This document shows, piece after piece, positions 4,898-13,257 of a stretch of 64,000 nucleotides of DNA (within the stretch, counting starts at the first letter, position 1; every line of letters begins with the position of its first letter). Source of the stretch: an uncultured Bradyrhizobium sp. (GTDB lineage Bacteria > Pseudomonadota > Alphaproteobacteria > Rhizobiales > Xanthobacteraceae); NCBI RefSeq assembly GCF_947648125.1, contig NZ_CANSMR010000001.1:1-64000 (forward strand), given 5' to 3'. A program made the translations under genes and the position numbers. Below the pieces are notes generated by a model. The model was not told the DNA's origin. It was given only the letters and a program-made list of their open reading frames with translations, and ran no database searches.

Positions 4898-5026
4898 CCT
4901 TCGTGCCCAGAGCCGGTGAGACGAAAGGCGCCGCAAGGGCTCGCCGAGGCGCAGGCCTGAATTTTCGAATAGCCCAGTGGAGCTTCATCGGGTTGGGGGC
5001 GAAGTCTTCGCAGTCCGCTTGCGAGA

Positions 5027-5254
5027 CTAGCTACGAGCCTTGGATGTTTTTTCGTCGAGCAAATCCACTGGCCGAACCTCCAGCGCCTGAGCCGTTTCCC
5101 AGATTGTAAGCAGGGTGGCATTTTGCAGCCCTCGCTCCATGCTGCTGATAAAGGCCCGATCGACACCCATTCGCTCGGCGACAGCTTCTTGACTCAGCCC
5201 CAAGGCCAAGCGGAATTTGCGCGCGTTTGCTCCAAAGACCTTGCGAATGTCCAT
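5027..5254 (-). CDS. XRE-family repressor, QseC-like
   Basis: This is a 75-residue Cro/CI-type helix-turn-helix protein. The LGLSQEAVAERMGVD segment (about residues 18-32) carries the first helices, and the following SSMERG segment is the usual end of the recognition helix in this family. I chose ATG 5254; an in-frame TTG at 5272 would add six residues. It is divergent from a DUF2285 gene at 5464. The same arrangement, qseC opposite qseM, controls ICEMlSym(R7A) transfer in Mesorhizobium, where QseC represses the antiactivator gene qseM. The family call is firm; equivalence to QseC is inferred from position and from the neighbouring DUF2285 and two-part activator genes. Confidence 0.78.
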   Translation of the reverse strand: MDIRKVFGANARKFRLALGLSQEAVAERMGVDRAFISSMERGLQNATLLTIWETAQALEVRPVDLLDEKTSKARS

Positions 5255-5463
5255 CCGCAGGATAGGAGGCAATCGCGTATTTCAATGCTACGTGCTATAA
5301 TACGCGGGGACGAGCCGCCGCTTAGCATCGCCAGAAGTGTTCCAACGATTCTTTGATCTCTGGAGCGCACAAAAACCTGTAGACCGCTTGACCCAGTGGG
5401 TACGACAATAGCTCAGGTGCAGCTAGGGTTCTCCAAAGCTTCTCGACCAATAGGAGTTCTTGC
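5255..5463. promoter_or_regulatory. Divergent control region of the repressor and antiactivator genes
   Basis: It contains a 7-bp inverted repeat CGCGTAT (5274-5280) / ATACGCG (5300-5306), two direct TGCTA copies (5286-5290, 5293-5297) and an inverted copy TAGCA (5323-5327). A TATAAT hexamer lies at 5296-5301. These are candidate binding sites for the XRE protein and a promoter element. GGAG at 5453-5456 is the ribosome-binding site of the downstream GTG-started gene. Assignment to particular operators is inference. Confidence 0.45.
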
Positions 5464-5742
5464 GTGCCACCGCTTGATCCCCAAGTTGCGGATCTGGCTC
5501 CTGATGAGCCGACGCTGACGCCGTATGACCAGCAACACGCGGTCACCTATGTGCGTCTCCTCGACGCCGAAAAAGACAACGCCGATTGGCGAGAAGTGGC
5601 GCGTATCGTTCTTCACGTTGATCCTGACGCGGATCACGCTCGCGCCCATCGTTGCTACGAGAGCCATTTGGCGCGAGCGAAGTGGGCGGCGCGCCACGGT
5701 TATCGCCAGCTTCTCAGCCGTGGTTGGCCCAAGGCCGAATGA
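5464..5742 (+). CDS. DUF2285 antiactivator-like protein, QseM-like
   Basis: The 92-residue protein consists almost entirely of one DUF2285-type domain: a DWREVARIVL helix, then an RAHRCYESHLARAKW segment and a closing GYRQLL. DUF2285 is a variant helix-turn-helix domain. In Mesorhizobium the single-domain protein QseM binds and blocks the activators TraR and FseA, keeping the ICE quiet. Start GTG 5464 follows GGAG with a 7-base gap. Its divergence from an XRE gene and its place just before the two-part activator support the QseM-like call. The actual partner proteins are not shown by the sequence, and no traR homologue is in the window. Confidence 0.72.
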   Translation: MPPLDPQVADLAPDEPTLTPYDQQHAVTYVRLLDAEKDNADWREVARIVLHVDPDADHARAHRCYESHLARAKWAARHGYRQLLSRGWPKAE

Positions 5743-5892
5743 AGATTGTTTGAAGAAAACGTGACGATCCCTTGAAGCCCAATCAAAAACGCAAATAAGG
5801 CCATTGGCTTCACCGAATGCTGCAACCAGAAATGGTCACATTTATCAGGCTGCAATTCGCCATCGTTTGTGCAGTGCAGTGGGGAAGTCGCT

Positions 5893-6087
5893 ATGTCAGC
5901 TGTTGATTGGAGATCAGAGCAAGATTACGCAAACTTCGGAATGGCAGAAGGTGCCGACGTTGCTTGGGAATGGCTCCGCCGCGACAGCGAATACGAGCGA
6001 GATTTCAAGAATCTGACAGCCGCTGCGCAATCGAATGGGGCGCCTCACTCATTCCGACATAAATGGGGGTTGTCTTTTCGCGGCTGA
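5893..6087 (+). CDS. FseA-like activator, upstream ORF (DUF6499 half)
   Basis: This 64-residue ORF has the N-terminal character of ICE regulators: a VDWRS start, then DVAWEWLRRDSEYERDF. ATG 5893 follows GGGGA (5880-5884). It ends at TGA 6085-6087, exactly where related longer proteins continue without a break. The continuation is encoded one base later in the +1 frame. In ICEMlSym(R7A) the equivalent pair msi172/msi171 is joined by +1 programmed ribosomal frameshifting to make the excision activator FseA. Alone, this half lacks the DUF2285 domain and probably cannot activate. Confidence 0.7.
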   Translation: MSAVDWRSEQDYANFGMAEGADVAWEWLRRDSEYERDFKNLTAAAQSNGAPHSFRHKWGLSFRG

Positions 6088-6667
6088 TCCTGAACAGGCG
6101 TTCGACCGGCAATCGATATTCTGGGCACCTGAAGCCCTCTCGACCGTCTTGTCGCTCCGTCAATTCGGCGCGGCCAGCGATGGTGGGCAATATGCCCTTG
6201 ATTGGACCAGCCTTGCCGCTGGCGAATTTCGCCGGGGGCCAGATGGTTGGCATGGAGTTGTAGCGCTGGCAGGCGCAAGCCACCGGCTTTATCTGCCAGC
6301 AATACCCCCCAAAGGGGTCCCGCTTTCGATCGAATTGCCACTCGACGCCAATTCCGACATCCGTCTGCAGGCGGCGCACCGGTTTTGGTGCGCGATCGAC
6401 GGCCGCCGTCTCGGCCCGTCTCCTCTTGCGCTCTCTCCCCAACGTCGCCGGCGCTTCGTCTTGATGATGCGAGCCCTCGATGCCTGGTTAGCGGGACATA
6501 GTTATCGTGAAATCGCAGAGGGGTTGTTCGGCAGGGAGCGCGTTCGTGGCCGCTCCTGGAAGGACCATGATCTTCGCAGCTTGACCATCCGCCTGGTCAA
6601 GAACGGCATCGCTCTGATGCGCGGCGGGTACCGCGCGCTGCTGCGTCCCACATCCCGGAAGAAATAG
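6035..6667 (+). CDS. FseA-like activator, downstream ORF (DUF2285 half, +1 frame)
   Basis: The continuous protein sense begins at codon 6080 (AADPEQAF), not at the internal ATG 6035, whose first residues are merely the other frame of the upstream ORF. A +1 shift at TTT-C would give a 257-residue fusion (62 + 195). The C-terminal roughly 100 residues match DUF2285: a Leu-Asp-Ala-rich helix, YREIAEGLFG, then DLRSLTIRLVKNG and a closing GGYRALL. The expected role is transcriptional activation of the rdfS-type operon that starts 133 bases downstream. No good independent ribosome-binding site precedes ATG 6035, which favours production by frameshifting. Confidence 0.72.
   Translation: MGRLTHSDINGGCLFAADPEQAFDRQSIFWAPEALSTVLSLRQFGAASDGGQYALDWTSLAAGEFRRGPDGWHGVVALAGASHRLYLPAIPPKGVPLSIELPLDANSDIRLQAAHRFWCAIDGRRLGPSPLALSPQRRRRFVLMMRALDAWLAGHSYREIAEGLFGRERVRGRSWKDHDLRSLTIRLVKNGIALMRGGYRALLRPTSRKK
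6073..6087 (+). other. Candidate +1 programmed frameshift site
   Basis: The zero-frame codons are TCT TTT CGC GGC TGA. If tRNA-Phe slips from TTT (6076-6078) to TTC (6077-6079), the next codon is GCG (6080) in the +1 frame and the activator reads on without loss of homology. TTC is the better match for the usual GAA anticodon. The stop codon lies two codons after the shift point. Confidence 0.6.
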
Positions 6668-6745
6668 CCCCACCTTCAGGGGTGTCGAAAATAGACCCCC
6701 TCATCTTCGGCATCCCCCTTCGAGGCCCTTCTCCGTCATTGTCGC

Positions 6746-6773
6746 CGCCAGCGCGCCACGGACCTCGCTGGCG
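6746..6773. promoter_or_regulatory. Inverted repeat before the excisionase gene
   Basis: A perfect 8-bp inverted repeat CGCCAGCG / CGCTGGCG has a 12-base spacer and is centred about 40 bases before the excisionase ATG. It is a candidate activator site or a leader hairpin; the sequence alone does not tell which. Confidence 0.35.
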
Positions 6774-6799
6774 CTCCACACGGCAACGGAGATTGTCAG

Positions 6800-7078
6800 A
6801 TGTCCGATGCGAGCCTCGCTACATCGCCACGATACCTGCGGACTGCCGAGGCAGCCCGATACTTAAGCCTTTCACCCCGCACTCTCGAAAAGCACCGAAC
6901 TTACGGCACCGGTCCCGCTTACCGGAAAATCGGTGGCCGCGTGATCTACGCCGTTGCCGACCTGAATGCATGGGCAGACGTCGGTACCAGAACGTCAACC
7001 AGCGATCCGGGCACTGGCACCGTGCTGCCGGCAAAACGGCACGCTCCCATCCCTTATGCGGGAAAAGAGCGGCGCTGA
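6800..7078 (+). CDS. Excisionase / recombination directionality factor, RdfS-like
   Basis: This 92-residue protein has an AlpA/MerR-type winged helix-turn-helix at residues 12-60: YLRTAEAARYL, then SPRTLEKHR, and the wing IGGRVIYAVADLNAW. Such proteins bend DNA at the att site and turn the integrase toward excision. GGAG at 6787-6790 precedes ATG 6800. In ICEMlSym(R7A) the homologue RdfS heads an operon switched on by FseA. The order here, activator then rdfS-like then DUF2840, TraF and relaxase genes, is the same. The matching integrase is not in the window. Confidence 0.8.
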   Translation: MSDASLATSPRYLRTAEAARYLSLSPRTLEKHRTYGTGPAYRKIGGRVIYAVADLNAWADVGTRTSTSDPGTGTVLPAKRHAPIPYAGKERR

Positions 7079-7132
7079 CCGATGAAGAGAGATGTTCACA
7101 ATCCTCAAAGCCATTCGACCAAAGAGGTCGTC

Positions 7133-7597
7133 GTGAGCGATCTCACGACAGTCGAACTCCTGTGGCTCGAAAAGCGCATCGAAAACCGCATTCGATTTGG
7201 TCGTTCCGTTTCGGAGAAACTCGTCGACCGCAATCGACGCGTCCTGTCGTTCGCTCCCGGCAGCATCTTCGCCTTCGTGCGTTGGACATCCAACGACTTT
7301 GGGACGGTTCTGTCGCGCATCGATATCCTGCGCGCAGCGTCGCCGGGACAGCGCTATTCGACGGTGCCCTGGATCAAGCCCGGCGGTGAGAGCCTGTTGC
7401 GGCTATCCGGCTGGCCGAAGGTCGAACGGGTGCTGCAATTGATCGATGCTGTCGAGGCGCTCGACATCGATCCTGCCGACGTAGCACCCGACTATTGGCA
7501 CCACGCGCATAACCGGTTGTCGGTCAACGAAATACCCCGGCCATACACCCGGTCCCGGCACCAGGCCTGGCTCCATCGGCGGAGGATAACCTCATGA
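7133..7597 (+). CDS. DUF2840 domain-containing protein
   Basis: The product has 154 residues from GTG 7133, which follows AGAGG and gives the usual family opening (SDLTTVELLWLE). An in-frame ATG at 7082 would add 17 residues but has no ribosome-binding site. DUF2840 landmarks are the IENRIRFGR segment, the SFAPGS turn and FVRWTSND. It is always found next to traF on rhizobial and sphingomonad conjugative elements. Its stop overlaps the traF ATG. Its function is unknown; by location it is part of the excision and transfer operon. Confidence 0.82.
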   Translation: MSDLTTVELLWLEKRIENRIRFGRSVSEKLVDRNRRVLSFAPGSIFAFVRWTSNDFGTVLSRIDILRAASPGQRYSTVPWIKPGGESLLRLSGWPKVERVLQLIDAVEALDIDPADVAPDYWHHAHNRLSVNEIPRPYTRSRHQAWLHRRRITS

Positions 7598-8103
7598 CAG
7601 CTCGGTGTGCGACGGTTTTCACAACATTCGCGGCAACCGTTCTTCTCCTTTCGACGATCGGGAGAGCGCCACCACGCTACATATGGAATGCATCGAACAG
7701 CGTTCCAATTGGCCTTTACCGCCTTCAGCCGATGACGACGTTGGTCGTTACCGAACTTGTCGCGATTCAGCCACCTGCTCTCCTTGCTGCATTCCTTGAT
7801 CTCAATGGTTATCTGCCGATCGGTGTCCCCATGCTCAAGCGCGTGCTGGCACTCCCCGGACAGAAGGTTTGCCGAAACCGCCTGACGATCGCCGTCGACG
7901 GCGTCGAGGTCGGCCAGGCGCGGGAACGCGACGGGAGAGGCCGTCCGCTTCCGGCTTGGAACGGATGCCGCGTCATTGCTGATGGCGACATCTTTGTCAT
8001 GAACTGGCAGTCAACCGACTCGCTCGACAGTCGGTACTTTGGACCGGTACCCACATCCGCGGTGATCGGCAGGGCAGTACCAGTTTGGACTGACGAGGAG
8101 TGA
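7594..8103 (+). CDS. traF: Conjugal transfer signal peptidase TraF (S26 family)
   Basis: The 169-residue protein has an N-terminal membrane anchor (about residues 8-23). The S26 serine-protease pair is visible: the nucleophile Ser36 in SVPIG, and Lys82 in PMLKRVLALPG. The C-terminus has the GD-IFVMN and DSRYFGPVP motifs of TraF/LepB proteins. In RP4-type systems TraF processes the TrbC pilin into its cyclic form, so it should act with the trbC gene 15 kb downstream. It overlaps DUF2840 by four bases. Confidence 0.88.
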   Translation: MTARCATVFTTFAATVLLLSTIGRAPPRYIWNASNSVPIGLYRLQPMTTLVVTELVAIQPPALLAAFLDLNGYLPIGVPMLKRVLALPGQKVCRNRLTIAVDGVEVGQARERDGRGRPLPAWNGCRVIADGDIFVMNWQSTDSLDSRYFGPVPTSAVIGRAVPVWTDEE

Positions 8104-8105
8104 TC

Positions 8106-8858
8106 ATGCACAGCATTCCCGCTCCCTCAGTCGATTGCAGGTCCTCAGAACTGCGTCCGGCCTTTCCTTGCCGGCCATGCCCAACGACCAAAAAGCGCTC
8201 GCCAGGCCGGCAAAGGAAAAGTCATTTCCGTGCGCCGGCGGACCTGATTGCATGGCGCGCGTCGCTCGGACTCAGTGCCCGCCTCATCGTGGTGATCACG
8301 CATTTCATGTGCTTGATTGCGGCATCGACGTTCTTCGAATCGAGGGTGAGCGCACAGAGCCCTGTACGTCCTCCATCCATCGACCGCTTTGCCAACTTCA
8401 TCGCGGAAGCTTCCGCTCGCTTTGCCGTGCCGGCGAGCTGGATCAGTGCCATCATACAAATTGAAAGCGCGGGCGACGAGCATGCGATCTCGCCTCGTGG
8501 CGCAATGGGCTTGATGCAGCTCATGCCCGGCACGTGGGTCGAGCTCAGCGTTCGCTATGGGCTCGGTCTCGACCCGTTTGATCCGCGAGGCAACATATTG
8601 GCGGGCACGGCTTATCTCAGGGAGATGCACGACCGTTTCGGCTCGGCAGGCTTTCTTGCGGCCTACCATGCAGGTCCGTGGCGATATGAACAGCACCTCG
8701 TAACAGGAAAGCCGCTTCCATCCGAAACTACGGCCTACGTCGCGGCGGTCACACCATTGCTGGACAGCGAGCAGGGTGAACACGCCGCAGTTGACGGCAG
8801 GCGTGCACTTCCTTGGCGGGAGGCTCCGCTGTTTGTTGAGCGGGCGGGCGCACCGTGA
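8106..8858 (+). CDS. Conjugation-associated lytic transglycosylase (SLT domain)
   Basis: The 250-residue protein has an N-terminal hydrophobic segment after a basic leader. The soluble lytic transglycosylase domain lies at about residues 95-215, with catalytic Glu near residue 120 in IQIESAG. The motifs GLMQLMP and the later AYHAGP, which takes the place of the usual AYNAGP, also fit the family. It opens peptidoglycan for the mating channel. GAGGAG (8095-8100), inside the end of traF, precedes ATG 8106. Its stop overlaps the GTG of the next ORF. Confidence 0.85.
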   Translation: MHSIPAPSVDCRSSELRPAFPCRPCPTTKKRSPGRQRKSHFRAPADLIAWRASLGLSARLIVVITHFMCLIAASTFFESRVSAQSPVRPPSIDRFANFIAEASARFAVPASWISAIIQIESAGDEHAISPRGAMGLMQLMPGTWVELSVRYGLGLDPFDPRGNILAGTAYLREMHDRFGSAGFLAAYHAGPWRYEQHLVTGKPLPSETTAYVAAVTPLLDSEQGEHAAVDGRRALPWREAPLFVERAGAP

Positions 8859-9454
8859 CGGACATTCGGTTTGCATTCGAAAGGCTGCAACACGATCATG
8901 ACGCTAAGACCTTCGGGTTTGCCACTGAAGGACCCTCGCTCACGCGGCAAGAGTTCGCTGAGGAGTGCGATATTAACGTGCTGATGGCATACGGGCGATG
9001 CCTTCGGCCCGCGCTCTACTCGTCGCTTCGCTCCTCACCGAGCCACCCTACGGGTGTCTCGGCCCTTCGGGTAACGATCGCTATCGCAAACGCTCGCTTC
9101 GCTCGCAAACAGTGGGGGCTTCGCAAGTCAACTGCCAAGTCTCGGCGGCTCTTTCGCAATGAATCGGCCACCAGCCGACGTGTTCGGGCAAGCGCTATTG
9201 GAGGATCCACCGCAATGGGCCGAACTGCATGTTGTCGCAAATCGCCGCGAGTACCGAGAGTCTATTGGCTTGGAAGTTGGGCCCTGGGAACGAGCGACCG
9301 AGGAGGGCAGGATAAAGCACGCAAGGTGCGTGCGGTCGGTCGGGGTAGGAAACAGCAGCAAACTCCAACGACATGGCCGACATTGCGCCACATCCGGCAC
9401 AACTTCCATTTCCTTGCAACGCGTCACAGTTGCTGGGCTTTCCACACCCTATGA
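8855..9454 (+). CDS. Hypothetical ORF with a microvirus scaffold-like N-terminus; downstream part doubtful
   Basis: GTG 8855 overlaps the transglycosylase stop. The first 47 residues look like real protein, and the segment SLTRQEFAEECDINVLM resembles the conserved start of gokushovirus-type internal scaffolding protein (VP3). From about base 8995 the reading runs through a GC-rich, hairpin-containing stretch and becomes Arg/Ser-rich with no family sense, so the intact gene may end or be broken there. A second patch of plausible protein sense lies in another frame at 9159-9290. It could be a conserved ICE protein disrupted by the structured element, or a phage-derived remnant. I do not assign a function. 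Confidence 0.4.
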   Translation: MTDIRFAFERLQHDHDAKTFGFATEGPSLTRQEFAEECDINVLMAYGRCLRPALYSSLRSSPSHPTGVSALRVTIAIANARFARKQWGLRKSTAKSRRLFRNESATSRRVRASAIGGSTAMGRTACCRKSPRVPRVYWLGSWALGTSDRGGQDKARKVRAVGRGRKQQQTPTTWPTLRHIRHNFHFLATRHSCWAFHTL

Positions 9455-9461
9455 GGCCACG

Positions 9462-11189
9462 ATGACCGGTAACGACGATTTTCGCGTCCGTCCTGGCCGC
9501 ATTCGCTCGACCCATTCGCCGCGATCGAAATCCTTTCTGGCGCAGGCGCTCAAAGCCACGCAAAAGGCCGGCGGCTTCCCGCGTGGCGGCCCGAGGCGTG
9601 GCAGCACGTTTGGGCGTGGCCGCGCGGCGAGCCTTGCGGCTTCGCGGTTCCTCAACAACAGCGCCCGAGGCGCCATCGTCAAGGCGCGGGTGGTGCGGCG
9701 GATGCGTTCGCCAGGCGCGCTCCGAGCTCACATCGGATATCTCCAGCGAGAAGGGGTGACCCGGGATGGGGAGCGCGGCAAATTGTTCGATGCCGCAGGA
9801 GATGAGGCCGACGGCCGTGCCTTTGCGGAGCGGTGCGAGGGTGACCGGCATCATTTTCGGTTCATCGTCTCGCCCGATGATGCTTCAGAGCTGCAGAGCT
9901 TGCGCAGCTTCACCCGCGAACTGATGGATCAGGCCTCCCGCGATCTGGGCACCCGACTCGACTGGGTCGCCATCGACCATTGGAATACCGAGCACCCCCA
10001 TATCCACATCCTCGTGAGGGGCCGCGCCGATGATGGAAAGGACCTCGTCATCAGCCGCGATTATATCTCGACGGGCCTGCGCGCCCGCGCCGGCGATCTC
10101 GTGACTCTCGAGCTCGGTCCGCGCTCGGAGCTCGAGATCCGCAAAGGGCTCGAGGCGGACATGGTGGCCGAACGCTGGACGCGGCTCGACCGGGTGCTCG
10201 CCAGGCAAGCGGGTGGGGCGGATGGGATGATCGATCTCCGGCCAGACCGGGATGCCCCACGCGATCCGTTGCATGAGATCCGGATCGGGCGGATGCGGAC
10301 GCTCGAGCGCCTGGGCCTGGCCGAGCCTGCCGGGCCTGCGCGGTGGGTGCTGGCGCCTGACGCAGAGCAGCGTCTGCGCGCGCTGGGGGAGCGTGGCGAT
10401 ATCATCAAGCGGTTGCACAAGACCCTTACCAAGGATGGCGCGGCACGCGCAGCAACATCCTGGGCGCTGGAAGGCGAAAGCCACGGCGAACCCGTGATCG
10501 GGCGCCTTATTGCCCGCGGCCTCGATGATGAGCTAAGGAGCACGGCCTTTGCCATTGTCGACGGGATCGATGGGCGCGTCCATCATCTCAAACTCCCAGA
10601 CATCGATGCGGTTGGCGACGGGCCGATCGGCGGCATCGTGGAGCTGCGGCGCTTTGAGGACGCCAGGGGCCGACAGCGGATCGCGCTTGCCGTCCGCTCA
10701 GATCTCAATCTTGATCAGCAGGTGGCAGCGGAAGGGGCGACCTGGCTTGACCGGCGCTTGGTCGCGCGTGAAGGCACCGATCTCTCGCGCGCCGGTTTCG
10801 GTAGCGAAGTCCGTGCCGCGCTCGACCGACGTATCGACACGCTGATTGAGCAAGGGCTCGCTCGCCGGGATGGCGATAAGGTCACACTCGGCCGTAACCT
10901 CATTGGGACCTTGCGTAACCGCGAACTCGACAGTGTGGGCCGGCGCTTGGCCGCCGAGACGGGGTTGACCTATCTCCCCGCTGAGGCAGGAGACTCCGTT
11001 GCGGGAATCTACAGCCGAAGGCTGTCACTTTCCTCGGGCCGCTTTGCAATGATCGACAATGGCCTCGGCTTTCAGCTCGTGCCCTGGTTACCTTCGCTAG
11101 AGCGTGAACTCGGCAGACAGGTGAACGGCATTGCCGGTCCCGGCGGCGTGGATTGGAATTTCGCCCGCAAGCGCGAGCTGTCGCTCTGA
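9462..11189 (+). CDS. rlxS: Relaxase, RlxS-like (DUF3363 type)
   Basis: This 575-residue relaxase carries the metal-binding histidine cluster EHPHIHILVRG near residues 177-187, and the upstream IDHWN typical of the family. The C-terminal two-thirds corresponds to DUF3363. It nicks oriT and covalently carries the transferred strand. I chose ATG 9462, preceded by GAGG (9453-9456); the frame is open further upstream but without protein sense. The Arg/Gly/Ser-rich N-terminus (residues 1-80) is usual for this family. It is followed by the coupling protein gene, as expected. The oriT itself was not identified. Confidence 0.85.
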   Translation: MTGNDDFRVRPGRIRSTHSPRSKSFLAQALKATQKAGGFPRGGPRRGSTFGRGRAASLAASRFLNNSARGAIVKARVVRRMRSPGALRAHIGYLQREGVTRDGERGKLFDAAGDEADGRAFAERCEGDRHHFRFIVSPDDASELQSLRSFTRELMDQASRDLGTRLDWVAIDHWNTEHPHIHILVRGRADDGKDLVISRDYISTGLRARAGDLVTLELGPRSELEIRKGLEADMVAERWTRLDRVLARQAGGADGMIDLRPDRDAPRDPLHEIRIGRMRTLERLGLAEPAGPARWVLAPDAEQRLRALGERGDIIKRLHKTLTKDGAARAATSWALEGESHGEPVIGRLIARGLDDELRSTAFAIVDGIDGRVHHLKLPDIDAVGDGPIGGIVELRRFEDARGRQRIALAVRSDLNLDQQVAAEGATWLDRRLVAREGTDLSRAGFGSEVRAALDRRIDTLIEQGLARRDGDKVTLGRNLIGTLRNRELDSVGRRLAAETGLTYLPAEAGDSVAGIYSRRLSLSSGRFAMIDNGLGFQLVPWLPSLERELGRQVNGIAGPGGVDWNFARKRELSL

Positions 11190-11280
11190 ACCGCCGATTT
11201 CTGCGCCATCGTGCGCGATACTGCGACGCCGGTTGGATTGCTCTTGCATGGGGGCGGCGGTGGTGCGCATTGCGTCTGCC

Positions 11281-13257
11281 ATGTCCGCGACCCGCATCTT
11301 GTGGGGGCAACTGCTCCTCGCCTCGTTGGCTGTGCTCGGCTTCCTTTGGGCAGCGACCGAATGGACGGCCTGGCGTCTGGCCTACCAGCCACAGCTCGGG
11401 CCCGCCTGGTTCATGATCTGGCATTGGCCGATCTATCAGCCGCTCGCATTTTTCATCTGGTGGTTCAAGTTCGATGCCTATGCGCCCGGTATCTTCATGC
11501 AGGGCGCCTGCATCGCCGCAAGTGGCGGGATCGCAGCCATGGTCATTGCCATGGTCCTCTCGATCTGGCGGGCGAGGGAAGCGCAGCATGTGACAACATA
11601 CGGCTCGGCCCGCTGGGCGGATGCCCGGGAGGTTCGGCGTGCGGGGCTCCTTGGACCCGACGGCGTCGTGCTTGGTCGTTTTGGCGGCCGCTATCTGCGG
11701 CATAACGGCCCCGAACATGTGCTGTGCTTTGCGCCAACGCGCTCGGGCAAGGGCGTCGGACTTGTCATCCCGACACTGCTGACGTGGCCGAGCTCCACCA
11801 TTGTCCACGACATCAAGGGTGAGAATTTCCAGTTGACCTCGGGTTTTCGCGCCCGCTTTGGGACCGTGCTGCTGTTTGATCCGACCAACCCTGCAAGCGC
11901 CGCCTACAATCCGTTGCTCGAGATCCGCAAGGGCGACTCCGAGGTGCGGGACGCACAGAATATCGCCGATATCCTCGTCGACCCCGAAGGGGCGCTCGAG
12001 CGCCGCAATCATTGGGAGAAAACCAGCCATTCGCTGCTGGTCGGCGCGATTCTCCATGTCCTCTACGCGGAAGCGGACAAAACGCTCGCCGGCGTCGCCA
12101 ATTTTCTGTCTGACCCCTCTCGCGGAATCGATGCGACGCTCAATGCGATGCTGGCGACCCGGCATCTCGCGGATCGCGTTCATCCAGTGGTCGCTTCAGC
12201 TGCACGGGAACTCCTCAACAAAAGCGAAAATGAACGGTCCGGAGTGCTGTCGACCACGATGAGCTTCTTAGGGCTCTATCGCGATCCCGTCGTCGCTACG
12301 GTCACCGGCCGATGTGATTGGCGAATTGCTGATCTTGTGGACAGGCCCGACCCCGTCTCGTTGTACCTGGTGGTGCCGCCATCTGATATCGCCCGCACGA
12401 AACCGCTCATGCGCCTCGTGCTCAACCAGATTGGGCGGCGTCTGACCGAAAGCCTCAATACCAGCCGGAATCGGCAGCAGCTGCTCCTCATGCTTGACGA
12501 GTTCGCAGCCCTCGGCCGGCTCGACTTCTTTGAGAGCCAGCTCGCTTTTATGGCAGGTTACGGCATCCGCAGCTTTTTGATCACTCAAAGCCTGAACCAA
12601 CTCGAACGCGCCTATGGGCCAAACCACGCGATCCTCGACAATTGCCATATCCGGATTGCGTTTTCGACCAATGATGAGCGCACCGCCAAGCGGGTGTCGG
12701 ACGCGCTCGGCACCGCGACCGAGATGCGGGCCATGAAGAATTACGCCGGACATCGCCTCTCGCCCTGGCTCGGTCACTTGATGGTAAGCCGCCAGGAGAC
12801 TTCCCGTCCGCTACTCACATCAGGAGAAGTCATGCAGCTCTCACCGAGCGAGGAGATCGTGATGATCTCGGGTGTGCATCCTGTGCGCGCCCGCAAGGTT
12901 CGATATTACGAGGATCCCCAATTCCAGCGCCGAATCCTAAAACCCTCGCTCACGGTTTCCGGCAGCTTTGCCACCCAACCCGACGACTGGTCGACCCGCA
13001 CGCCCATTCCGCCCTCGCAAGAGCTACTAGCAGTGCTGAAACCCAAAGCGCGCGATCCGAATGGTGGTCATCGCCGCGAGCCCGAACTGCCGCAACCCGA
13101 CGAACTCGTGATCACTTCGCCACGTGCAGAAACCGAATTCGACGCCCATCCGGATGACGGTGATGCTGATGCCGTGCAGGCGCGAGTCTTGAACGGCTCG
13201 ATGCAGGGTCTGGCACGCGCTGTCAGCCTCGACCCTGACGACAAGATGGGCCTGTAA
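11281..13257 (+). CDS. traG: VirD4/TraG-type coupling protein
   Basis: The 658-residue type IV coupling ATPase has two N-terminal membrane segments (about residues 8-28 and 75-100). Walker A is APTRSGKG near residue 151 and Walker B is LLMLDEF near residue 402. The ending QLSPSEE-IVMISG and a basic-acidic tail are usual. It recruits the relaxase-DNA complex to the mating pore. ATG 11281 gives the usual family start (MSATRILWGQ); ATG 11248 is an alternative. It belongs with trbB-trbI, which are separated from it here by 8 kb of cargo. Confidence 0.9.
   Translation: MSATRILWGQLLLASLAVLGFLWAATEWTAWRLAYQPQLGPAWFMIWHWPIYQPLAFFIWWFKFDAYAPGIFMQGACIAASGGIAAMVIAMVLSIWRAREAQHVTTYGSARWADAREVRRAGLLGPDGVVLGRFGGRYLRHNGPEHVLCFAPTRSGKGVGLVIPTLLTWPSSTIVHDIKGENFQLTSGFRARFGTVLLFDPTNPASAAYNPLLEIRKGDSEVRDAQNIADILVDPEGALERRNHWEKTSHSLLVGAILHVLYAEADKTLAGVANFLSDPSRGIDATLNAMLATRHLADRVHPVVASAARELLNKSENERSGVLSTTMSFLGLYRDPVVATVTGRCDWRIADLVDRPDPVSLYLVVPPSDIARTKPLMRLVLNQIGRRLTESLNTSRNRQQLLLMLDEFAALGRLDFFESQLAFMAGYGIRSFLITQSLNQLERAYGPNHAILDNCHIRIAFSTNDERTAKRVSDALGTATEMRAMKNYAGHRLSPWLGHLMVSRQETSRPLLTSGEVMQLSPSEEIVMISGVHPVRARKVRYYEDPQFQRRILKPSLTVSGSFATQPDDWSTRTPIPPSQELLAVLKPKARDPNGGHRREPELPQPDELVITSPRAETEFDAHPDDGDADAVQARVLNGSMQGLARAVSLDPDDKMGL

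Follow-up and report, generated by a model that had tools for sequence, protein, structure and literature searches.

The question raised by this locus is how one activator could be produced from a gene whose two halves lie in different reading frames. In the stretch of 64,000 nucleotides of an uncultured Bradyrhizobium sp. analysed here (hereafter the window), an open reading frame coding for a DUF6499 domain runs into a stop codon, and sense resumes one base out of frame. The split activator is very probably, judging from sequence comparison, the fseA of an integrative and conjugative element in a Bradyrhizobium-type genome, and its product would be made by means of a +1 frameshift. Genes of this design form a known switch that restricts the movement of mobile DNA elements among soil bacteria, and the present copy is a typical one.

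The first part of the gene (ORF1; 5893-6087, + strand, frame 0) begins with ATG 5893 and continues for 64 codons up to TGA 6085-6087, and its 64 amino acids make up the entire DUF6499 domain (PF20109, E 5.5e-17; 62.3 bits, with a cut-off of 23.8). The second part (ORF2; 6080-6667, + strand) is found in the +1 frame, where GCG at 6080 opens the sense and TAG 6665-6667 closes it after 195 codons, and it codes for a DUF2285/RovC-type DNA-binding domain, which matches PF10074 with an E of 1.9e-33 when ORF2 is taken from ATG 6035. A single +1 step at TTT-C (6076-6079) fuses the halves into 62 + 195 = 257 residues, i.e., an FseA-type activator, and three of the features that mark the members of this group are present in the gene: an N-terminal DUF6499, a C-terminal DUF2285 and a +1 relation with a conserved slip codon. 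The original prediction had placed the end of the DUF6499-like ORF at TGA 6085-6087, which is exact to the base, and it was also right that sense resumes at 6080 and that a slip from TTT to TTC restores 257 residues; its FseA-like reading is supported by the comparison, through PF20109 together with PF10074, the +1 relation and the slip codon.

A frame break of this type may also be accidental, resulting from the decay of the gene or from a miscalled base, in which case no full protein would exist. Additional breaks are indeed found in some relatives, given that L016, L175 and L213 retain the +1 slip site and have a further indel within ORF2, and that L037, which is 80% identical, has one close to the end of ORF2. 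However, the split falls on the identical codon in the five nearest orthologues (94-80% DNA identity), including the 94% identical orthologue, which comes from a one-contig genome, and the orthologues at 83, 83, 82, 80 and 72% identity are likewise split. The +1 relation recurs in 233 of 273 loci, the slip codon is invariant within the clade, and the dN/dS of ORF2 is 0.13-0.24 in comparisons with 14 relatives. The corresponding values for ORF1, which could be estimated for 12 of these 14 relatives, are 0.12-0.65, the highest being derived from just seven changes, and these ratios indicate that purifying selection is acting on ORF2 and also, where it can be estimated, on ORF1. Decay or a miscall is extremely improbable on this evidence, and the identical split of the 94-80% orthologues contradicts the doubts that accompanied the original prediction, namely a miscalled base or close homologues in a single frame.

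The counts in the family come from a chosen, genus-heavy sample, composed of the best matches of each search and 140 hand-picked places, so that the share of split forms in it is not an estimate for nature. Before the removal of duplicates, the second domain was found solely in the +1 frame in 247 of the 288 domain hits. Once the repeats with an identical 500-base signature had been removed, 273 distinct DUF6499 loci were retained, with the second domain in the +1 frame in 233, in frame 0 in 29, in frame +2 in two, and absent in nine, and these last three groups (29, two and nine loci) were left out of the slip counts. The anchored counts further exclude three +1 loci that lack a Trp-Gly anchor (233 to 230) and, where indicated, two anchored loci with TTT one codon later (230 to 228). 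At the level of the genus, 196 of 265 genomes carry PF20109; the corresponding figures are 86 of 397 sampled genomes for the order, 25 of 385 for the class and 43 of 398 for the phylum, and the domain is absent from 14 of 14 control genomes. All six named loci that matched with ORF1 in the genome-contig search belong to Bradyrhizobium. The comparator stretch of M. loti NZP2037 (L298) has no split fseA site, and the DUF6499 gene of that record is located elsewhere.

The slip site itself (6076-6079, + strand) consists of the frame-0 codon TTT (6076-6078) and the following C (6079), so that the +1 frame reads TTC at 6077-6079. A Trp-Gly anchor precedes it in 230 of the 233 +1 loci, and TTT stands four codons past the Trp in 228 of these 230, against a background in which TTT represents only 479 of 1708 Phe codons (28%) elsewhere in the same genes. 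This excess persists after a crude thinning (<60% identity), with TTT in 96 of 98 loci, and the base that follows the slip TTT is C in 214 and T in 14 of the 230 anchored loci. Since a pyrimidine comes after TTT at this site, Phe is decoded in either frame, and this is the slip rule that the alignment supports. The same arrangement, TTT-CGC followed by reading in the +1 frame, is found in B. guangzhouense (L299), Bradyrhizobium sp. 62B (L301) and pMLb of M. japonicum MAFF 303099 (L300). The two anchored exceptions have TTT one codon later (L111, TTT-C; L277, TTT-T), and the three loci without an anchor read TTT-T (L064), TTT-C (L212) and TGT-C (L079), of which only the last is a true exception to the TTT rule. 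The comparison of homologues suggested with the original prediction therefore finds both the split and the slip codon conserved, in the five nearest orthologues and in the 228 of 230 anchored loci, respectively.

The in-frame homologues provide a complementary view of this site, given that 23 of 28 have the Trp-Gly anchor and that TTT is missing at the site in 22 of these 23. The exception is L007, which retains TTT-C and is back in one frame owing to an indel located a few codons past it; it is possible that this represents a recent escape from frameshifting, as slipping would now break the frame, or that it is an assembly error. An observation of another kind concerns public annotation, in which the halves in L299 (2580-3354) and L301 (1501-2272) are given as distinct DUF6499 and DUF2285 genes, with the start of the DUF2285 gene placed approximately 170 bases past the end of the DUF6499 gene. 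A second fseA is also found in the same genome as the window (G000:C1:631739-632480; L002, L072); it, too, is divided at TTT-C and meets a TGA two codons on, and it has its own QseM-like gene upstream.

Another way to account for two conserved halves is that ORF2 initiates by itself and that the halves assemble as subunits of two proteins. In the window, ATG 6035 could serve as such a start in the +1 frame, and some +1 start codon is found upstream of the slip in 92 of 228 loci; in Azorhizobium, the sections of PMC9601964 dealing with rihF1a and rihF1b argue that each half has its own start and stop codons, and conclude that there is no frameshift. In the remaining 136 of the 228 TTT loci, however, the +1 frame offers no ATG, GTG or TTG ahead of the slip, such starts are lacking in six of eight near orthologues compared (L034-L037, L039 and L040), and a counterpart of ATG 6035 exists in just two of the eight (L033 and L038). 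Those same sections of PMC9601964 also state that neither half alone restored transfer in Azorhizobium, which counts against this reading. Separate initiation is thus very unlikely, and translation of a single fused product by a +1 shift is the preferred reading.

The fused frame might also arise at the level of the transcript, if RNA polymerase slipped on a run of T and generated mRNAs with the frames already joined. The run in the window has four T (6075-6078), and it is reduced to just three where CGA precedes TTT-C (71 of 200 loci). Four T is short for slippage by RNA polymerase, and this explanation has next to no probability. A shift during translation could, on the other hand, be driven mainly by a slow (hungry) codon in the A site, rather than by the re-pairing of the P-site tRNA at TTT-Y, and it is consistent with this that the codon after TTT is a sense codon, rather than a stop, in nearly all of the loci, L277, with TGA after TTT, being an exception. 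The A-site codon is nevertheless CGC in 127 of 230 loci and CCC in 72, and the invariance is found at TTT rather than at the A-site codon. As CGC is the commonest Arg codon of the window (265 of 598 in 16 ORFs), it would hardly be a slow one, and a hungry codon as the main driver is unlikely, so that re-pairing on TTT-Y is retained as the preferred reading.

Six bases ahead of the slip codon, the Trp-Gly codons form a sequence similar to a Shine-Dalgarno (SD) element, TGGGGG (6064-6069, + strand), which could assist the shift. The anchor Gly is coded by GGG in 140 of 230 loci, whereas the other Gly codons of these genes are GGG in 505 of 3676 cases, and the GGG state of the anchor changes at least 22 times on a tree obtained by a fast method, with a midpoint root used just for listing clades and no ancestral states drawn. 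Given that 88 of the 90 loci without GGG still carry TTT at the anchored codon, TGGGGG appears to be favoured, yet dispensable. No stimulatory RNA structure stands out over shuffled sequences in the four stretches around the site (z of 1.38, -0.05, 1.26 and -0.15), a promoter scan of positions 5000-7100 predicted none, and a terminator scan gave one hit, compared with 2.0 in shuffles.

The frame-0 TGA (6085-6087, + strand), which would end unshifted translation, is formed by GCT|GAT of the +1 frame, and the original prediction had emphasised this stop, two codons downstream, as possibly limiting the dose of the activator. Exactly two codons past TTT, a frame-0 stop is found in 100 of 228 loci, a number that rises to 136 when any stop within ten codons is counted. 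When the loci with a short ORF2 are omitted, as in some of the counts (226 loci rather than 228), a stop occurs no more than two codons from the site in 44% and no more than ten in 59%, compared with just 6% and 21%, respectively, from points further along ORF2. As it is present in only 100 of the 228 TTT loci, the early stop is, on this comparison, no general part of the frameshift, and the emphasis does not hold for the family as a whole.

For the clade of the window, on the other hand, the emphasis is reasonable. In the 23 sequences retained for this clade (<93% DNA identity), the third base is invariant in just three of 92 conserved degenerate columns, namely those of the slip Phe (TTT), of the Ala (GCT) located two codons on and of one other Phe. 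GCT is used by 21 of the 21 members with Ala at this place, where T creates the TGA, and it otherwise represents approximately 11% of the Ala codons in ORF2. When the set is narrowed to 18 sequences, the slip TTT and the GCT are again invariant, among six of 98 columns. Where Val, Ile or Cys occupies the stop-making place, no comparable preference for T was found. The family-wide preference is strong by count, but the tree attributes it to only a few changes (3 and 2), so that the within-clade test was relied on; the p-values computed for this preference and alongside the thinned slip count assume an independence that the loci do not have. It is probable from this pattern that the prompt UGA itself is selected in the clade of the window, although some other nucleotide-level signal at the GCT position may be responsible. 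A limited search, covering parts of the literature on these activators, found no analysis of this out-of-frame stop.

If the stop is selected, the short product may have some role of its own. One tentative and rather improbable extension is that the 64-residue DUF6499 peptide is itself a selected product, which may bind QseM and soak up the antiactivator, in such a way that one region would provide both an activator and a decoy. Msi172 of R7A reportedly binds QseM in two-hybrid tests. Among the loci L001-L157 for which 900 bases or more of upstream sequence are available, 94 of 121 split forms have a QseM-like gene in their flanks, compared with two of 10 in-frame forms. This contrast is confounded by phylogeny, the in-frame forms being distant, and by the QseM profile, which derives from matches to the QseM of the window; the tendency fits the decoy only as a lead.

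The genes around the split activator are in keeping with such an element. A QseM-like antiactivator of 92 amino acids is encoded just upstream (5464-5742, + strand), with a lone DUF2285 domain (PF10074, E 2.2e-7) and a match over residues 7-86 to 7uqt, the "Quorum sensing master protein" (E 2.8e-15), and a QseM-like gene also precedes fseA in 34 of 36 other loci (L002 and L033-L067). Further upstream, on the opposite strand, there is a gene for a QseC-like XRE-family repressor of 81 amino acids (5027-5272, - strand; PF01381, E 2.4e-12), and a similar XRE gene, transcribed away from qseM, occurs in many of the relatives examined. Between qseM and fseA, a block of approximately 38 bases (5821-5858) shows strong conservation across 11 aligned orthologues, less so in the second fseA copy, and is possibly a promoter or operator. 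Downstream lie an rdfS-like HTH_17 excisionase gene, the expected target of FseA (6800-7078, + strand; PF12728, E 4.4e-10), which is found in the available flank of 17 of the 36 other loci (L002 and L033-L067), genes for DUF2840, a traF-like S26 peptidase and a lytic transglycosylase (7082-8858, + strand; PF11000, PF10502 and PF01464), and those of a DUF3363 relaxase and a TraG coupling protein (9159-13257, + strand; PF11843, E 4e-88, and PF02534, E 4.7e-100). The region that follows the trb genes (31507-63680) appears, from a by-eye reading of its ORFs, to carry cargo for the breakdown of acyl-CoA and of fatty or aromatic acids, including ligases, dehydrogenases, hydratases and a carboxylase.

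Upstream of rdfS there is an inverted repeat similar to the FseA box, GTCGAA-16 nt-TTCGGC (6684-6711, + strand), with arms at 6684-6689 and 6706-6711 and 16 bases between them, which is a candidate binding site some 89 bases ahead of the rdfS ATG. Thirteen aligned rdfS upstream regions, including that of the window, share a conserved block, in which the second arm, TTCGGC, is present in 12, and 6684-6711 is the only match to a strict box pattern on either strand of the 64 kb. A loose pattern follows 47 of 230 fseA genes, compared with 50 of 4600 mononucleotide shuffles, and the claim of a box is restricted here to the 13 aligned rdfS regions. No LuxR/LuxI family genes are found within the 64-kb window, which starts at the end of its contig, so that the element's left part falls outside it. 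LuxI and LuxR family genes are present on the same contig at 652-654 kb, approximately 20 kb past the second fseA, and further ones are found on the separate contigs C23, C44 and C45.

Given the anatomy, the conserved split, the slip codon, the clade-specific stop and the gene order, all of which are observed, the following sequence of events may be proposed. Ribosomes that start at ATG 5893 would make the DUF6499 domain, and a minority of them, with the peptidyl-tRNA-Phe on UUU (6076-6078), would move one base to UUC, where the GAA anticodon would exchange a wobble pair for a Watson-Crick pair. These shifted ribosomes would go on in the +1 frame to complete the 257-residue FseA, with WGLSFAADPEQAFDR as the predicted junction peptide of the fusion, while the unshifted ribosomes would decode CGC GGC and then meet UGA 6085. 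FseA may then bind the candidate box at 6684-6711 and turn on rdfS and the transfer genes, and QseM, encoded just upstream, would counter it. The tRNA event, its low frequency, the binding of the box and the action of QseM are proposed here by analogy with the published work on ICEMlSym(R7A).

A well-conserved Bradyrhizobium case is thereby added to the FseA family, together with simple rules, i.e., TTT plus a pyrimidine, a TGGGGG that is favoured and not required, and an early stop that is apparently selected in some clades only. The TTT-Y rules could allow annotation to rejoin genes that are now listed as two proteins, and they question the claim, as made in the sections of PMC9601964 referred to above, that Azorhizobium rihF1a/rihF1b function without frameshifting.

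The +1 shift and the upstream SD-like element of the window are both also found in prfB (RF2). In prfB, a stop codon occupies the A site during the slip, and three bases separate the SD from the slip codon. The window differs in having a sense codon in the A site and a spacing of six bases, and a stop-driven shift of the prfB type was rejected, as the A-site codon here is CGC and is a sense codon in nearly all of the loci. Among proteins of known structure, QseM (7uqt) shares a lone DUF2285 domain with the QseM-like protein of the window, and RovC (6xz5), with its DUF2285-type DNA-binding domain, is matched by the A4 alignment profile (E 1.5e-4) and is termed a distant relative in the relevant part of PMC10359603.

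The closest known system is FseA of ICEMlSym(R7A), encoded by msi172-msi171 of Mesorhizobium japonicum R7A, which, like the gene in the window, consists of overlapping DUF6499 and DUF2285 ORFs, joined in R7A by +1 PRF, with WGL coded by UGGGGG beside the site, a motif already remarked upon in the family (PMC10359603). R7A FseA activates rdfS through inverted hexamers 16 bp apart, the published box being two inverted hexamers separated by 15-16 bp, and the window has a similar repeat, albeit approximately 89 bases from the rdfS ATG, compared with 62-67 bases for the nearer arm in the published logo (PMC10359603). The fseA of R7A sits in the TraR-driven traI2-msi172-msi171 operon, as described in the pertinent part of PMC5882170, whereas in the window a codirectional qseM-like gene lies directly upstream and no traI/traR family gene is found within the 64 kb. 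The suggestion that this locus may be an independent example of a split activator does not hold, given that the site is homologous, family-wide and previously described as a conserved site of +1 PRF, with approximately 61% of 4709 FseA homologues on two ORFs according to the corresponding sections of PMC10359603. By comparison with what is described there, the gene in the window belongs by homology to the published family of FseA activators with a +1 frameshift.
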